This document shows positions 51,913 through 58,448 of a stretch of 64,000 nucleotides of DNA, in pieces. Source of the DNA: Pseudomonas sp. B21-040. Lineage in GTDB: Bacteria; Pseudomonadota; Gammaproteobacteria; Pseudomonadales; Pseudomonadaceae. The stretch is taken from contig NZ_CP087176.1 in the NCBI RefSeq assembly GCF_024748695.1, positions 303,501-367,500 of the forward strand, in the 5' to 3' direction. The translations under genes and the position numbers were made by a program. A model generated the notes under the pieces. The model saw only the letters and a program-made list of their open reading frames with translations. It was not told the origin of the DNA and searched no databases. Every line of letters begins with the position of its first letter. Position 1 is the stretch's first letter.

Positions 51913-53814
51913 TTAGATCCGGAAGCTGCCGACCAACTGCTTCAACCGCGCCGCCTGCTGTTCCAGGTCAGCGCAGGCGCGCAAGGTTGACTGCAAGTTT
52001 TCCACGCCTTCCTGGTTCAACGTGTTGATCTCGGTGATGTCGACGTTGATCGATTCCACCACGGCAGTCTGTTCCTCAGTCGCTGTCGCCACCGACTGAT
52101 TCATCCCGTCGATTTCGCCAATGCGCTGCGTCACGCTGCCCAGGCGTTCGCCAGCCTGGTTGGCGATGCCGACGCTGCTTTCGCTCTGGCGCTGGCTGTC
52201 GGTCATGGTGCTCACCGCTTCGCGGGCGCCGACTTGCAATTCCTCGATCATCTTCTGCACTTGCTGCGCCGAATCCTGCGTGCGGTGCGCCAGGTTGCGC
52301 ACCTCGTCCGCCACCACGGCAAAACCACGACCGGCTTCACCGGCGCGAGCCGCTTCGATGGCCGCGTTCAGGGCCAGCAAGTTGGTCTGCTGGGAGATGC
52401 TGGTGATCACTTCCAGAATCTGCCCGATGTTCACGGTGTTGCTGTTGAGCGTTTCAATGTTGCCGCACGAATCACTGATCTTCGCCGACAGCTGCTGCAT
52501 CGCCGCGATGGTCTTGTCGACGACTTGCTGGCCATCTTCTGCCATGGCGCGGGCATCGCTCGAATGCTGGGAAGCGAGGGCGGCGTTCTGGGCGATTTCC
52601 TGGGCGGCGGCACCCAACTCGTTGATCGCCGCGGCCACGCTGCTGGTACGCGAGGCCTGTTGATCGGAGTTGAACATCGACGAGTTGGAAGCGGCCACCA
52701 CACGCAGGGCGACTTCGTTGACTTGGCCGGTGGCCGACGACACTTCACGAATCGAGGTGTGAATACGCTCTACAAAGCGGTTGAAGGACGTGCCCAGTGC
52801 ACCAAATTCGTCCTGGCCATGAATGGTCAGGCGCTTGGTCAGGTCACCTTCACCTTCGGCGATGTCATGCATCGCGCGGCCCATGGTCAGCAGCGGCTGC
52901 ATCAGGACGCTGATCAACACGCCCAGCAACGCGATGATGATCACCACGGCAATCACCATGGCGATGATCGCCGAGGTGCGGAATTCGCTGAGCATCGAGA
53001 ACGCGGTGTCCTGATCCAGCACCAGTGCCACGTACCAGTCTGCCGACGGCACACCGTTGACGTGGGTGAAGGACATGAACTGTTTCTTGCCGTCGATCTC
53101 GACTTCTTTCATGCCCGGGCTGACGTTCGGCGCGCCGTTCGGGTAGGCGTCGGCGAGGCCTTTGAGCACCAGTTTGTTGTCCGGGTGAATCAGGATCTTG
53201 CCGTCGGCACTGACGATGAACGCGTGGCCGTGGCCGCCGAAGTTCAGCGAGTTGATGATCGCGCTGACGCTGGACAGGTCAATGTCCGCGCCGGCAACGC
53301 CGATCATCTGGCCCTGATACTTCACTGGCGTGGCGACGGTGATCACCAGTTTGCCGGAGGATGCGGCAATGTATGGTTCGGTGACGATGGTCTGTTGTGC
53401 GCTGTTGGCCGCCTTGTACCAGCCGCGGGAACGAGGATCGTAGTCGGCGGCGCGATTGCCGGCCGGGACCGAGAACATCACGCCGTCAGTGCCACCGAAA
53501 TAGCTCAGCTGGAAGTTGCTGGTGTAGGCCGGCAGGTCGATGGCGCGTTTCAGGCTGGCCTGGGCGCTGCCATCCACGGCGATCTGCTGGGACAGCGATT
53601 GCAGCAACTGGATGCGACTTTCCAGCCATGTCTGGATGTTGCTGGTGGTCAGGCTGCCGAGTTCCTGCATCGACGATTCGGTACTGCTGCGCAGGGTCTG
53701 GCGCTGGCGGTAGTCGTTGAACAGGATAAAGCAGGCGAACGCAACGGCGACCACGAGGGCGGCTGCCAACAGGATCTTGTGGCTGAACTTCATGTTTCTG
53801 GTCATTAAATGCAT
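51913..53814 (-). CDS. Methyl-accepting chemotaxis protein with dCache domain
   Basis: The receptor of about 633 residues has a membrane helix near the N-terminus, a periplasmic dCache_1 sensor, a second helix (about residues 285-307), a HAMP domain and a cytoplasmic signalling hairpin with the conserved tip [20 protein letters not shown]. The sensor has RSRGWYKAA, then TEPY and GAD, the residues expected for amino-acid-binding dCache domains such as Pseudomonas PctA/B/C. Amino-acid taxis is therefore likely. In-frame ATGs at 53814, 53805 and 53793 leave the exact start open. Confidence 0.9.
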
Positions 53815-54088
53815 TACCGCGGAGGGGCTGGTCGGCGAGGGGCGTCAAATCGTCACAGTCGAGGGCTTGGCGCTGCCTCTATGTCGACTGGTCAGCGCCA
53901 AAGATTAGGCGCGTTTTTGCAAAAACCGACGAAATACTCAATGGCGCGAGAAAGTTACTGATTTTTCGAAAGAAGGCAGACGAGTGGCCCGATAAATAGC
54001 ACAACAGTCGGGGAACCAGATGGGGGTTTGCTCTTCTAAGCTTCAGCTTGGCAGCCATGCCATTCCCCTTCGTTCCAGGAGTCTCACC

Positions 54089-54343
54089 ATGTCGCTGCGT
54101 TCTATCGCCTTGCTCTCGTTCTGCGTGTTGTTGGCCGCATGCAGCAAGGTCAATCAGGAAAACTACTCGAAACTATCGACCGGCATGCCCAAGGCCGAGG
54201 TCGAGACGTTGCTGGGTACACCTGCTGATTGCTCGGGCGCGCTCGGCATGTCCAGTTGCACCTGGGGCGACAAAAACAGCTTTATCAGCGTGCAGTACGC
54301 CGGTGACAAAGTATTGATGTTTTCCGGCCAAGGCCTGAAGTAA
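54089..54343 (+). CDS. Small lipoprotein, DUF3862 type
   Basis: The 84-residue protein has a lipobox (LLAAC) and a short SmpA/OmlA-like domain (YSKLSTGMPKAEVETLLGTP). DUF3862 is the likeliest family. Such domains stabilise outer-membrane assemblies or bind partners, but nothing is known for this type. CCAGGAG before the ATG at 54089 decides the start. The lipocalin gene follows after 31 bp. Confidence 0.78.
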   Translation: MSLRSIALLSFCVLLAACSKVNQENYSKLSTGMPKAEVETLLGTPADCSGALGMSSCTWGDKNSFISVQYAGDKVLMFSGQGLK

Positions 54344-54374
54344 ACCGGGGCGCTGCGCCCGCGGGAGAAAAACA

Positions 54375-54944
54375 ATGAAGCGGTTATTACTCGTACTTTT
54401 TGCCGGCCTGGTTTTGGCTGGCTGCGCCACTTCTGGCCAAGATCCGTTGGCGCCAAAAACCGTCAACAGCGTCAACCTCAAGCGCTACCAAGGGACCTGG
54501 TACGAGTTGGCTCGCATGCCCATGTATTTCCAGCGTGACTGCGCACAATCCGAAGCCCATTACACGCTCAAGCCGGACGGCAACCTGGCGGTCTTGAACC
54601 GCTGTCTGACGCCGCAGTGGCAGTGGGAAGAGGTCAAGGGCACGGCTTATCCACAGGTGCCGGGCAAAACCGACAAATTGTGGGTCAAGTTCGATACCTG
54701 GTTCTCTCGGTTGATCCCCGGCACGGCGAAGGGCGAATACTGGGTGCTGTACGTCAGCGACGACTACAAGACAGCCATTGTTGGCGACCCGAGTCGCAAG
54801 TATCTGTGGCTGCTGGCCCGCACGCCGATCGTCAATGGCGTCGTGCGCGAGGAGCTGCTGAGCAAGGCGCGTCAGCAGGGTTACGACACCTCGCGGCTGA
54901 TCTGGCGTGCGTCGGAGCAGCAGATGGCCAAGACCTCGGACTAA
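54375..54944 (+). CDS. Outer-membrane lipocalin (Blc type)
   Basis: The 189-residue lipoprotein has a lipobox in LVLAGCATS and the lipocalin signature (LKRYQGTWYELARMPMYFQR), followed by the expected eight-strand pattern (YWVLYVSDDYKTAIVGDPSR). Blc-type lipocalins bind lipids such as lysophospholipids at the outer membrane. It is probably co-transcribed with the small lipoprotein upstream. Confidence 0.9.
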   Translation: MKRLLLVLFAGLVLAGCATSGQDPLAPKTVNSVNLKRYQGTWYELARMPMYFQRDCAQSEAHYTLKPDGNLAVLNRCLTPQWQWEEVKGTAYPQVPGKTDKLWVKFDTWFSRLIPGTAKGEYWVLYVSDDYKTAIVGDPSRKYLWLLARTPIVNGVVREELLSKARQQGYDTSRLIWRASEQQMAKTSD

Positions 54945-54956
54945 CTGCACATATAC

Positions 54957-55041
54957 CTGTGGGAGCGAGCTCGCTCGCGATGAGGCCATCAGCTTCAACA
55001 GAAATGTTGACTGACAGGCCGCCATCGCGAGCAAGCTCGCT
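54957..55041. repeat. REP pair (GAGCGAGCTCGC variant), right unit interrupted by the IS110 element
   Basis: The left unit CTGTGGGAGCGAGCTCGCTC is complete. The right unit reads ATCGCGAGCAAGCTCGCT and then stops at 55041; its missing end CCCACAGGT follows the IS at 56211-56219. The variant carries GAGCTCGC in place of the classic GGGCTTGCCCGC. Confidence 0.9.
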
Positions 55042-55064
55042 TGTATGTTTAGACTTGAAGGGGT

Positions 55065-55131
55065 GGGCGGGACTAAAAGCTCGATTCCGACTCTAGCCAG
55101 TACGGACCGTGGGAGACTTCTCGTCCCGCCC
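55065..55131 (+). ncRNA. Candidate bridge-RNA target-binding loop of the IS110 element
   Basis: GGGCGGGAC (55065-55073) pairs perfectly with GTCCCGCCC (55123-55131). The internal loop between them holds AAGCTCG (55077-55083), identical to the left target half at 55033-55039, and GTGGGAG (55109-55115), the reverse complement of CTCCCAC at 56209-56215. A small stem TCCG/CGGA separates the two. This is the layout of the target-binding loop in IS110 bridge RNAs. The rest of the RNA, including a donor loop, would extend to about 55240. Confidence 0.7.
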
Positions 55132-55242
55132 CTTCTACCCGAAGCGCCGATAAGGAATTCATCGGTAAAACCGACGATAGAGGCAAGCCAGCGCAAGGGT
55201 AAACCCCGACAAGCCCTTAAACCCTAGCTCCGAGGATTCGTC

Positions 55243-56205
55243 ATGACAATCCTTACCTCGCCAACGGTAATCGGTATCGATGTAGCCAAGGCCGAAATCG
55301 TCGCTTACCGCGAAGACATGCAAACCACTCAACACATCAACAACGACCGAGAGACTCTTGGGCGTTGGCTCAAAGCTCTGCCTGCGCAAAGCTCAATTGC
55401 TTTGGAAGCCACCAGCATTTACCACTTGGACACGGTCGAACTGGCCCATGAAATGGGACACCGGGTTTACGTTGTGGATGCTTATCGTCTGAGCCACTAC
55501 CGCGAAAGCATTGGCCAACGGGCGAAAACCGACCCTTGTGATGCGCGCCTGCTCGCGCGTTACCTGTCTAGCGAGCAGGATCGACTGCGCCTCTGGAGTC
55601 CACCTCCGCAGGCCTACAAGGTGTTGAAAAGTCTGCTTCATAGACGCGCAGAGCTTATCAATGTGCGTGTGGGCATGACGCTGAGTTGGTCAGGTGAACC
55701 GCTTCTGAAGGATGAATTGGCCCGGCAATTGAAGTCCTTCAAACAAGCGGAGCAAGCCATCCAGAAATTACTGCACAAAGTCAGCAAAAAGGCAGGCATC
55801 ACCGAAAACATCAAGCGCTGCAAAGCCATTGAGGGGATCGGTGAGCTTACGGCTATGGGCTTGGCGACCGCATTCATGCGCGGTCACTTCGCCAACGGCG
55901 ATGCATTCATTGCTTTTTTGGGGATGGACTTGCGAGCAAAGGATTCAGGCAAGAAGAACAGCCCTCGCCACCTGTCCAAAAAAGGCGATACGGAGCTGCG
56001 GCGCCTGGCTCACAACGCGGCGATGGCGGCTTGTCGGTCTGCCACCTGGAAACCGTACTATGAGTCCTATCTCGTCAGAGGCTTGGCAAAAACCCAAGCC
56101 CTGGTGATCCTCGCCCGCAAGCTATGCCGGGTGGCATTCGCTCTCATGAAAAACCAGAGCGAATACCAGCCAAATTTAAGGCTGCAGGGTTCCCCTGCAA
56201 CATAG
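55243..56205 (+). CDS. IS110-family transposase/recombinase
   Basis: The 320-residue recombinase has the N-terminal RuvC-like DEDD domain (first Asp in VIGIDVAKAEIVA, Glu in ALEATSIYHL, two Asp in KTDPCDARLLARY) and the C-terminal Transposase_20 domain (AIEGIGELTAMGLATAF, then KDSGKKNSPRHLSKKGDTEL, containing candidate catalytic serines). CGAGGA precedes the ATG. The frame appears intact. Confidence 0.93.
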   Translation: MTILTSPTVIGIDVAKAEIVAYREDMQTTQHINNDRETLGRWLKALPAQSSIALEATSIYHLDTVELAHEMGHRVYVVDAYRLSHYRESIGQRAKTDPCDARLLARYLSSEQDRLRLWSPPPQAYKVLKSLLHRRAELINVRVGMTLSWSGEPLLKDELARQLKSFKQAEQAIQKLLHKVSKKAGITENIKRCKAIEGIGELTAMGLATAFMRGHFANGDAFIAFLGMDLRAKDSGKKNSPRHLSKKGDTELRRLAHNAAMAACRSATWKPYYESYLVRGLAKTQALVILARKLCRVAFALMKNQSEYQPNLRLQGSPAT

Positions 56206-56226
56206 AATCTCCCACAGGTTTTTTTA

Positions 56227-57591
56227 TCAGCCTAAAAGATCGCGCAGGACCTGGGTGAAAGCGCGGTTGCTTTCTTCCTCATCGGCATGACGCCCGTCAC
56301 GCACAACCCACTGGCCATTGACCAGCACATCGCGCACCTGGCGATCACCACCGGCAAACAGCCAGCGATTCAAAATCCCGTCGCCACTGGCCGTCGCCAG
56401 GTACGGATCATTGCCATCGAGCACCAGCCAATCTGCCCGCTTGCCCACTTCCAGCGCGCCAATCGGCTGCCCCAGTGCCTGTGCGCCGCCGTCCAGTGCG
56501 GCGTCGTACAGCGTGCGGCCCACCATTGGCTGATCCGCGCCATACAAGCGGTTACGCCGCTGATCGCGCAGACGCTGGCCATATTCCAGCCAGCGCAATT
56601 CCTCCACCACGCTCAACGAGACATGGCTGTCAGAGCCGATGCCCATGCGTCCGCCCTGAGCGAGGAAATCCACCGCCGGGAAGATCCCGTCACCCAGGTT
56701 GGCTTCAGTGGTCAGGCACAAGCCGGCGATGGCGCGACTCTTGGCCATCAGCGTGACCTCTTCGGCGTTGGCGTGGGTGGCGTGAACCAGGCACCAGCGC
56801 TGATCGACCTCGGTGTTTTCATACAGCCATTGCAGCGGACGGCGACCACTCCAGGTCAGGCAGTCATCGACTTCTTTCTGCTGCTCGGCGATATGGATGT
56901 GCACCGGGCATTGCTTGTCGCTGGCCGCCAGCACTTCGCTGATTTGCTGCGGCGTGACTGCGCGCAATGAGTGGAAACACAGACCCAGCGACTGCGCTGG
57001 TTGCTGCGCCAGGAGTGGTTGCAAGCGCGACTGAAGCTTGAGGTAGTTTTCGGTGCTGTTGATGAAGCGGCGCTGACCTTCGTTCGGGGTCTGGCCACCA
57101 AAACCGGAGTGGCTGTAGAGCACCGGCAGCAGGGTCAGGCCAATACCGGCGGAACTGGCGGCCTGGCTGATGCGCAGCGCCAACTCGGCCGGGTCCGCAT
57201 AAGGCTGGCCGTTGGTGTCGTGATGCACGTAATGAAATTCCGCCACCGATGTGTAACCGGCCTTGAGCATTTCGATGTACAACTGACGGGCGATGACGCC
57301 GAGTTGGTCCGGGCTGATTTTTCCGACGAGGCGATACATCAAATCGCGCCAGGTCCAGAAACTGTCGTTCGGATTGCCCGCCACTTCTGCCAGCCCGGCC
57401 ATTGCTCGCTGGAAGGCATGGGAGTGCAGATTCGGCATTCCCGGCAGCAGTGGACCGCTCAGCCGTTCGGCGCCATCTGCATGGGAATCGGCCTGGATAT
57501 GGGTCAAAACGCCCTCGGCATTGACCTCAAGACGTACATTGTTGGCCCATCCACTAGGCAGCAGCGCGCGTTCGGCAAAGAAGGCGGACAT
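56227..57591 (-). CDS. hutF: Formimidoylglutamate deiminase
   Basis: The 454-residue metal-dependent amidohydrolase converts N-formimino-L-glutamate to N-formyl-L-glutamate and ammonia, the fourth step of the five-step Pseudomonas histidine-degradation pathway. Metal-binding motifs are MPNLHSHAFQRAM, the His pair HIHIAEQ, HATH and the Asp in GSDSHVS. It diverges from hutC; the shared spacer has a HutC operator. Confidence 0.95.
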   Translation of the reverse strand: MSAFFAERALLPSGWANNVRLEVNAEGVLTHIQADSHADGAERLSGPLLPGMPNLHSHAFQRAMAGLAEVAGNPNDSFWTWRDLMYRLVGKISPDQLGVIARQLYIEMLKAGYTSVAEFHYVHHDTNGQPYADPAELALRISQAASSAGIGLTLLPVLYSHSGFGGQTPNEGQRRFINSTENYLKLQSRLQPLLAQQPAQSLGLCFHSLRAVTPQQISEVLAASDKQCPVHIHIAEQQKEVDDCLTWSGRRPLQWLYENTEVDQRWCLVHATHANAEEVTLMAKSRAIAGLCLTTEANLGDGIFPAVDFLAQGGRMGIGSDSHVSLSVVEELRWLEYGQRLRDQRRNRLYGADQPMVGRTLYDAALDGGAQALGQPIGALEVGKRADWLVLDGNDPYLATASGDGILNRWLFAGGDRQVRDVLVNGQWVVRDGRHADEEESNRAFTQVLRDLLG

Positions 57592-57617
57592 GGTTCAGCA
57601 CCCCATCGTGTGTTATT

Positions 57618-57633
57618 TGTATATACATATACA
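57618..57633. promoter_or_regulatory. HutC operator between hutF and hutC
   Basis: TGTATATACA is a perfect palindrome of the TGTA-N2-TACA type and is extended to TGTATATACATATACA. It lies 27 bp upstream of the hutF ATG and about 70 bp upstream of hutC, where it could control both. Confidence 0.7.
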
Positions 57634-57698
57634 GACGTTTGCCTGCCCGGTAAACTCCGGCAAGCTAGCGATATTCACTAAACGACCAAGGATTAACC

Positions 57699-58448
57699 GT
57701 GCCGACTCCGCCCCCAGTGTCACCGTTGGCCGCGAACATGGGCGACAGTCCGGCGCCCTTGTACGCCCGCGTCAAACAGATGATTACCCAGCAAATCGAC
57801 AGTGGAAACTGGCCGCCGCACTATCGCGTTCCGTCGGAAAGCGAGTTGGTCAGCCAACTGGGTTTCAGCCGCATGACCATCAACCGTGCGCTGCGGGAGA
57901 TGACTGCCGACGGTCTGTTGGTGCGCATGCAAGGCGTCGGCACGTTCGTCGCCGAGCCGAAAAGCCAGTCCGCGCTGTTTGAAGTGCACAACATTGCCGA
58001 CGAAATCGCCTCCCGTGGTCATCGTCACACCTGCAAAGTGATTACCCTCGAAGAAGAAGCCGCCGGCTCCGAACGCGCTTTGGCGTTGGACATGCGCGAA
58101 GGGCAGCGGGTTTTCCACTCGCTGATCGTGCATTTCGAAAACGATATTCCGGTGCAAATCGAAGACCGTTTCGTCAACGCGCTGGTGGCCCCCGACTACC
58201 TCAAGCAGGACTTCACCCTGCAAACGCCTTACGCCTACCTGAACCAGGTCGCGCCGCTGACGGAGGGCGAGCATGTGGTCGAGGCGATTCTGGCCGAAGC
58301 CAGCGAATGCAAATTGCTGCAGATTGAAAAGGGCGAGCCGTGCCTGCTGATTCGCCGCCGCACCTGGTCGGGCCGTCAGCCAGTGACCGCCGCCCGTTTG
58401 ATCCACCCCGGTTCCCGTCATCGTCTGGAAGGACGCTTTCATAAATGA
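57699..58448 (+). CDS. hutC: Histidine utilization repressor HutC
   Basis: The 249-residue GntR-family repressor has a winged helix-turn-helix (about residues 20-90, VPSESELVSQLGFSRMTINR) and a UTRA effector domain (about 105-245). Urocanate is the inducer in Pseudomonas. The GTG start at 57699 follows CCAAGGAT; ATG at residue 14 is an alternative. Its stop overlaps the hutD start (ATGA). Confidence 0.95.
   Translation: MPTPPPVSPLAANMGDSPAPLYARVKQMITQQIDSGNWPPHYRVPSESELVSQLGFSRMTINRALREMTADGLLVRMQGVGTFVAEPKSQSALFEVHNIADEIASRGHRHTCKVITLEEEAAGSERALALDMREGQRVFHSLIVHFENDIPVQIEDRFVNALVAPDYLKQDFTLQTPYAYLNQVAPLTEGEHVVEAILAEASECKLLQIEKGEPCLLIRRRTWSGRQPVTAARLIHPGSRHRLEGRFHK

Follow-up and report, generated by a model that had tools for sequence, protein, structure and literature searches.

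The left end of an IS110-family element in Pseudomonas sp. B21-040 carries a predicted bridge RNA whose target guides match the REP that it interrupts

The locus described here raises the question of how an insertion sequence (IS) finds its place in a genome. In the window (i.e., the whole stretch of 64,000 nucleotides that was analysed), an IS110-family element lies inside a REP, and the letters on both sides of the insertion point are found again, in sense on the left and in antisense on the right, in the non-coding left end of the element itself. It is therefore asked whether the choice of the REP is written in this left end as an RNA guide, or whether it is due to the recombinase or to the REP repertoire of the host.

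The element and the REP that it interrupts

The element and its surroundings consist of the following parts:

55042–56208, plus strand: IS110-family element, 1,167 bp, with four copies encoding an identical protein in its own genome
55243–56205, plus strand: IS110 recombinase, 320 aa (PF01548, PF02371; NF033542; alignment to 8wt6)
55042–55242, plus strand: left non-coding end, putative bridge RNA region, 201 nt (covariance model match at 55052–55217)
55040–55041: left copy of the core dinucleotide CT, read in the sequence (a single CT in the empty site)
56209–56210: right copy of the core dinucleotide CT, read in the sequence
54956–55041: left part of the target, an inverted REP pair (REPIN-like), the interrupted arm of which ends in CGCGAGCAAGCTCG-CT (intact orthologue in the relative G010)
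56211–56218: right part of the interrupted REP, CCCACAGG, read in the sequence (intact orthologue in G010)

First of all, the assignment of the element to the IS110 family, made in the first-pass annotation, was borne out by the protein, which contains the DEDD RuvC-like domain PF01548 and the C-terminal domain PF02371 with its conserved serine, and reaches 167 bits (cut-off 140) with NF033542, the NCBI model of IS110 RNA-guided transposases. In the alignment to 8wt6, D13, E55, D97, D100 and S235 fall on the catalytic motifs of IS621, and the catalytic role of the corresponding IS621 residues has been reported (PMC11208158). Among solved structures, only ISCro4 and IS621 came up as relatives at E up to 0.001, and a database protein labelled ISPpu10 (P0085) is 76% identical to that of the window. 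In the own genome, the fifth match after the four identical copies is 33% identical over part of the protein only.

The insertion point was fixed by comparison with G010, in which the orthologous place is an empty site, ...GAGCAGGCTCG-CT-CCCACAGGG..., that is to say, an uninterrupted inverted REP pair with one CT. The earlier claim that the IS splits a REP between CT and CT therefore holds, its coordinates having been rechecked. CT flanks both ends in all four own-genome copies, which is the short-core, site-specific insertion of the IS110 group, and the long left and short right non-coding ends of this group are also present (201 nt on the left against 3 nt on the right, between the stop codon ending at 56205 and the IS end at 56208). 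On the right of the element, the minus-strand gene at 56227–57591 presumably encodes a formimidoylglutamate deiminase, and that at 57699–58448 is taken by us to be a GntR-type histidine-utilisation regulator, both judged by eye.

The flanks of other copies show some further arrangements. A second REP lies nearby in the flank of a number of them too. In one genome (G066, C45, L143/L144), two IS copies share one orientation, have their gene starts 1,352 bp apart and possess separate REP flanks, and in another (G186, C10, L174) the same 18 letters, CTCCCACATTTGGTAGCT, stand on both sides of the IS, the left flank misfitting the guide AAGCCCG; this duplicated flank is possibly a tandem event or an assembly effect.

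The predicted RNA of the left end and its two loops

The target-binding loop of the predicted RNA consists of the following parts:

55065–55073, plus strand: 5′ strand of the target-loop stem, GGGCGGGAC (perfect 9-bp stem; arm-swap test)
55123–55131, plus strand: 3′ strand of the target-loop stem, GTCCCGCCC, pairing with 55065–55073
55077–55083, plus strand: left target guide AAGCTCG (guide–site co-variation, host-corrected test)
55086–55106, plus strand: inner stem-loop of the target loop, TCCGACT...AGT-A-CGGA (7 pairs, 100% paired, one changed on both sides)
55109–55115, plus strand: right target guide GTGGGAG, complementary to CTCCCAC (130 of 139 copies have a right guide that complements their right half site exactly)
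55116–55117, plus strand: target-loop handshake nucleotides AC, of which A can pair with donor position 7 (T)

The perfect 9-bp stem, with AAGCTCG on the left and GTGGGAG on the right of its loop, had been claimed before and was found at exactly these positions. AAGCTCG, which spans the seven letters left of the core, occurs also in the flank at 55033–55039, and GTGGGAG spans all of CT-CCCAC. In 2,000,000 mononucleotide shuffles of the loop strands 55074–55085 and 55107–55122, AAGCTCG arose in 0.0375% and GTGGGAG in 0.0165%, giving a product of about 6e-8. PMC11208160 assigns the bottom strand to the left target guide and the top strand to the right one, with the core included in both pairings; the role of the handshake nucleotides is known from IS621 (PMC11208158). 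The core-facing letters of the left guide in the window (55084–55085), where CT would pair, are AT; over the 139 related copies described below they are AT in 92, CA in 33, CT in 13 and AA in 1, and in IS621 they are CT. Core-facing letters other than CT might keep an element from targeting its own guide.

The donor-binding loop and the IS ends that it could read are arranged as follows:

55144–55147, plus strand: 5′ strand of the donor-loop stem GCGC, pairing with 55191–55194 (in the unconstrained fold; invariant in 21 sequences)
55191–55194, plus strand: 3′ strand of the donor-loop stem GCGC, pairing with 55144–55147
55152–55159, plus strand: left donor guide AAGGAATT, which can pair with the bottom strand of ATAGAAT-C
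55162–55174, plus strand: inner stem-loop of the donor loop, TCGGT/ACCGA (5 pairs, 93.3% paired, two changed on both sides)
55177–55187, plus strand: right donor guide AT-AGAG-G-CAAG, which can pair with CT-TGTAT discontinuously (IS621 layout)
55188–55189, plus strand: donor-loop handshake nucleotides CC, of which the first C can pair with target position 7 (G)
55042–55046, plus strand: right donor TGTAT (left end of the IS), partner of the right donor guide and identical to CT-TGTAT of IS621
56202–56208, plus strand: left donor ATAGAAT (right end of the IS), overlapping the stop codon

The order of these parts (left guide, stem-loop and right guide, all within the GCGC stem) was taken from distant relatives. 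The candidate donor guides fit the joined IS ends: the left one in 8 of 8 letters in G402 and IS621 and in 7 of 8 in G681, and in the window with five Watson–Crick pairs, two wobbles and one mismatch. Co-variation is seen in G404, where GAGC stands in the IS end as well as in the guide, against GAAT with GAAT in the others. As for the handshake, all four letters fit in G402, and the first donor-loop letter can pair with target position 7 in the window (C with G), in G080 and in G402 (G with C). The letter at this place is a U in G004 and G139 and does not pair with the C present at 4 of 5 of their sites.

Before this order was adopted, ATAGAGGC (55177–55184) and CAAG at 55210 had been read as the left and the right donor guide, respectively, a reading that was dropped because distant relatives keep the ATAGA end while their loops have no ATAGA, and two of them lack the second CAAG. 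The first-pass annotation had likewise connected ATAGA (55177–55181) weakly with the right end of the IS. The letters are present, but since the distant relatives and IS621 give the above order, they are best read as the start of the right donor guide, and their likeness to the right end as accidental. It is rather improbable that the adopted layout is wrong in detail, i.e., that ATAGA at 55177 is the left guide after all or CAAG at 55210 the right one, in which case the target guides would stand as they are. Such an error would agree with the two wobbles and one mismatch among the eight letters of the left donor pairing, with the near invariance of the donor ends within the clade and with the conservation of the second CAAG (55210–55213) among near relatives. 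It is opposed by G673, G559, G681 and G404, whose IS ends keep ATAGA, whereas their RNA letters at this place are ATACT, AATTC, ATTTC and AATTT, respectively; by the GAAT of the proposed left guide, which is kept in G673, G559 and G681 and replaced in G404 by GAGC together with the IS end; by the lack of the second CAAG in what was read of G681 and G404; and by the agreement of the proposed order with that of IS621 as read from an E. coli record.

The fold as a whole may be closed by one more helix:

55054–55063, plus strand: 5′ arm of a possible closing helix, CTTG/GGGG, pairing with 55204–55213 (in the unconstrained fold)
55204–55213, plus strand: 3′ arm of the possible closing helix, CCCCGACAAG, pairing with 55054–55063 (in the unconstrained fold)

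The secondary structure is conserved, with two of the five measures used not above shuffled. It was written by hand on the sequence of the window and counted over 21 sequences of its clade, in which 97.1% of the cells are paired, against 37–47% when the structure is slid by 1–3 columns, and 20 cells are changed on both sides, against 6.4 when shuffled (0 of 500). The arms of the target stem also pair better with their own partners than when swapped (0 of 5,000; 26 distinct pairs). The two measures not above shuffled were the pairs with a double change (4 vs. 2.8; 86 of 500) and the further pair types (7 vs. 7.8; 481 of 500). The unconstrained fold of the left end contains all 33 proposed pairs; in it, the two target guides are also paired to one another, and its energy is unremarkable (MFE z = −1.53). 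Two helices, of 8 and 4 pairs, show no double change at all: covariation tests neither the GCGC stem, because it is invariant, nor the closing helix, because none of its 8 pairs (98.2% of cells paired, 5 invariant) is changed on both sides. The arm swap of the closing helix was weak (49 of 5,000, with the 3′ arm misplaced for G000, the genome of the window, and G100), so the helix is given here as possible. An RNAalifold run on a 41-sequence MAFFT alignment, in which the registers of two clades were mixed, was replaced by the 21 sequences of the window's clade.

A covariance search of the left end, as had been advised, gave a divided result. The model R1, built from the 21 relatives (another own-genome copy is in the training set), matches the window at 55052–55217 and, of 16 loci outside the training set, recovers the RNA in 13 at E 1.3e-5 or better, other families included. 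The same model gave no match at E up to 10 to IS621 (L243) or to either copy of G402 (L227, L229), so that the element was not detected together with IS621 by one model, as a narrow IS621-type bridge RNA would be. Rfam 15, which may or may not include a bridge RNA model, gave no match at E up to 1 over 53000–58000. Together with the co-variation of the target guides, the R1 match supports the earlier claim of a guide-bearing RNA region, as predicted, in the left end.

Guides and insertion sites in related copies

In the search of the genus, relatives at E up to 1e-60 were found in 49 of 398 genomes among the matches listed, with at most five candidates scored per genome, and 139 copies were taken from 45 of those 49, the guide and the flanks being read by a single rule. 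The left guide fits its site exactly in 63 copies and with one mismatch in 45 (at most one mismatch in 108), and with at least three mismatches in 20, of which 16 come from G000, G382, G128 and G300, whose guides are shifted against their sites by one letter. An exact fit of the right guide is seen in 130 copies, a fit with one C-to-T wobble in 5 and a fit with one mismatch in 4, and in G080 this guide has one mismatch to all four of the genome's own sites. When the guides were shuffled among the 46 genome-guide groups, the guide–target identity fell from 0.839 to 0.678 (sd 0.017), and 0 of 10,000 shuffles were as high. The target guides (left in sense, right in antisense) therefore co-vary with their targets, the point for which an alignment of related copies with their insertion sites had been advised.

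One-letter-offset guides occur in G382, G128, G300 and G363, outside the genus in G404 and G559, and also at two of the four own-genome sites; bulged pairing may be tolerated in these elements. An asymmetry of wobbles was considered as evidence of strand pairing and dropped, as 119 copies held 22 wobble-direction and 21 reverse transitions (G382, G128, G300, G363, G091, G186 and G355, with offset or odd registers, were left out of this count).

The four own-genome copies lie at AAGCTCG, AAGCCCG, AAGCTCGG and AAGCCACG, all with CTCCCAC as the right half. The left guide fits one of these sites exactly and one with a wobble difference, and the other two have the one-letter offset; of the REP variant AAGCTCGG-CT-CCCAC, the genome has 25 intact copies. 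Of the earlier statement that the element is programmed for this REP subtype, the preference and the co-variation of guides with flanks thus stood, and the exclusiveness did not, with an exact left match at one of four own sites. On these sequences, the match to the subtype is to be read as a preference.

On the tree of 46 transposases, at least 23 guide changes occur among 18 guides (shuffled mean 33.5). The element of the window (G000) and that of G052 are sisters (support 97/91) with the guides AAGCTCG and AAGCCCG, and the latter lies at AAGCCCG in 5 of 5 copies. In P. syringae GR12-2, the guide AAGCTTG meets readable left flanks of AAGCTTG in two of three cases and AAGCTCG in the third, and in G094 both sides have changed: the guides AGTTCG and CGTAGGAG belong to AAGTTCG-CT-CCTACG in 4 of 4 copies. 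In independent pairs on the tree, guide and site change in the same way more often than in opposite ways at all seven positions (e.g., 3.3 vs. 0.0 at −2 and 3.1 vs. 1.0 at −3), with no single guide position reaching 0.05. Beyond the genus, a search at the level of the order found relatives at E up to 1e-30 in 6 of 293 genomes besides the own one. The left guide fits exactly in G673, exactly at one site and with a single mismatch at the second of the two sites in G402, and with a one-letter offset in G559 and G404. G681, 39% identical, has the guides CGCTACG and CACGTGAG for the site CGCTGCG-CT-CACATG, with one mismatch per side. G577 holds two guides, its left fit being exact in one copy and looser in three, with two mismatches between guide and site.

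These cases bear on the possibility that the protein itself recognises REPs or their hairpin, the letters of the loop being a by-product, e.g., REP sequence captured in the left end. REPs are palindromic, ISPsy8 of another family (IS3) also inserts in REPs according to PMC1525189, and the right half CTCCCAC is common to 129 of the 139 copies of the clade, all of which would suit recognition by the protein. Related elements with different guides, however, occupy different subtypes even after correction for the host; within G577 the guide AGGCAAG sits at AGGCAAG (the other three copies fitting less well); and the sites of G681 and G402 are other than the REP of the window, while their loops fit those sites. 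Recognition by the protein alone is accordingly held to be very improbable.

Since hosts differ in their REPs, the subtypes were counted per host. It could be supposed that the element enters any REP and that the match of guide and target only mirrors the REPs of the host and shared ancestry, for both the elements and the hosts are related, and the guides do agree with the host repertoire. In the control, four subtypes followed by CTCCCAC were counted in 24 genomes; 61 of the 139 copies fell outside it (51 lay in other genomes, 7 at other sites, and 3 had a different right half), and from the remaining 78, 13 with one-letter-offset guides were set aside. The best-matching subtype holds 52 of the 65 insertions used, against 33.6 expected from abundance, and this was reached in 0 of 20,000 draws from a null weighted by the REP counts of each host. 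Minority subtypes are also matched and over-represented among the copies, though in small numbers: G125 has 4 of 5 copies at a subtype with a share of 9.9% of the sites, G253 1 of 1 at 3.3%, G366 1 of 3 at 2.4%, and the own genome 1 of 2 usable copies at 14.2%. G295 has 4 of 5 at 42.4%, and misses were counted in G205 (0 of 2), G139 (0 of 1) and, for one of its two guides, G289 (0 of 3). Entry into any REP is held to be extremely improbable, and recognition of the site by an RNA (i.e., a bridge RNA with two loops), as judged from sequence comparison, is very probably the way in which this IS110-group element finds its place.

The agreement with the host repertoire is an observation in its own right. 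For 22 elements of 21 genomes (three more genomes, whose guides are offset, were excluded), the share of the guide's subtype in the own host is 0.514 on average, against 0.271 when hosts are shuffled (0 of 20,000). The guide corresponds to the top subtype of the host in 12 of 22 elements, against 5.9 expected (36 of 20,000); this statistic ignores shared descent and the filter by which an element is kept only in hosts with fitting REPs. It is conceivable, at somewhat less than an even chance, that guides in this IS clade evolve to follow the common REP subtype of the host, the IS and REP repertoires co-evolving; tentatively, REP tropism would then change fast, one or two letters of a 7-nt guide being enough to switch it.

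Proposed mechanism and relation to known elements

In the proposed mechanism, the left end would encode a bridge RNA with two internal loops. Of the target loop, AAGCTCG would bind the bottom strand on the left side of the CT core and GTGGGAG the top strand, over the core and to the right of it, while AAGGAATT and AT-AGAG-GCAAG of the donor loop would pair with the joined ends of an excised circle, ATAGAAT-CT-TGTAT. The recombinase would then exchange strands at the CT of both DNAs, so that one CT is left at each end. REPs would be chosen because of their abundance and their fit to both guides, and with small changes of the guides the element would come to insert into a different REP subtype or, among distant relatives, into a different sequence. 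The making of the RNA, its binding and directing of the recombinase, the circle and the catalytic steps are inferred from the work on IS621 and seekRNA.

Bridge RNA and seekRNA were described in 2024 (PMC11208160, PMC11208158, PMC11187229), so the element is a clear new example and not a new principle. REP-specific insertion by ISPpu9, ISPpu10 and ISPa11 had been described in 2006 (PMC1525189). The element of the window is, in other words, an unusually legible example of a known RNA-guided IS type, and REP-inserting IS110 elements of Pseudomonas are already in print. In the literature searched, no title was found on the programming for REP subtypes across Pseudomonas, a statement that holds for that search only.

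IS621 of E. coli, the letters of which were read from an E. coli record, shares with the element the two-domain recombinase family (E 2.4e-20 to 8wt6), the order of the loops, the CT core, REP targets, the right donor CT-TGTAT letter for letter and a right donor guide of the form AT...GCAAG; in IS621, the guide AT-TT-G-CAAG pairs with CT-TGTAT (PMC11208158). The two differ in that the protein of the window is distant, the right target guide has 7 nt here and 4 in IS621 according to PMC11208158, the right donor guide has four unpaired letters against two, the left donor is ATAGAAT against ACAGTAT, the left guide of the window faces the core with AT, and its RNA has the possible closing helix. 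In E. coli BS15R-A (L243, about 1580–1735), part of the left end of IS621 is present twice: the first copy breaks off at ATCGGGC-CT, the left target guide of that same IS621, and the second left end starts there; this looks like an IS621 inserted into the guide of another IS621.

ISPpu10 and ISPpu9 of P. putida KT2440 are likewise IS110-family elements with a 2-bp repeat at the insertion point, and 7 of 7 copies of each are reported in REPs (PMC1525189, PMC8450116). ISPpu10, whose likeness to the present element rests on a database label at 76% protein identity, is named in a figure legend of PMC11208160 among six elements with predicted bridge RNAs. For ISPpu9, the repeat is written AG, unlike here, and the small RNAs Asr9 and Ssr9 are described as regulators of tnp in PMC8450116. 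In the seekRNA elements, i.e., ISEc21 (IS110) and the IS1111 group, a non-coding region of the IS also sets the target, and a natural re-direction by a changed guide is described for ISEc11/ISXne4 (PMC11187229); IS1111 members are described with the RNA downstream of tnp, whereas it lies upstream in the element of the window. ISCro4 (PDB 9t56) is the best solved relative (E 1.4e-21), compared by protein only.

In summary, the element offers a compact recombinase of 320 aa, related to that of IS621, and a right target guide that is longer than in IS621. The target choice of REP-inserting IS becomes readable from raw sequence and testable against the REP repertoire of each host, and the related recombinases with different guides form a natural series in which the tolerance of mismatches, one-letter offsets and the switching of guides can be measured. 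If the agreement of guides and hosts survives a correction for descent, REP-inserting IS would be found to track the repeats of their hosts.
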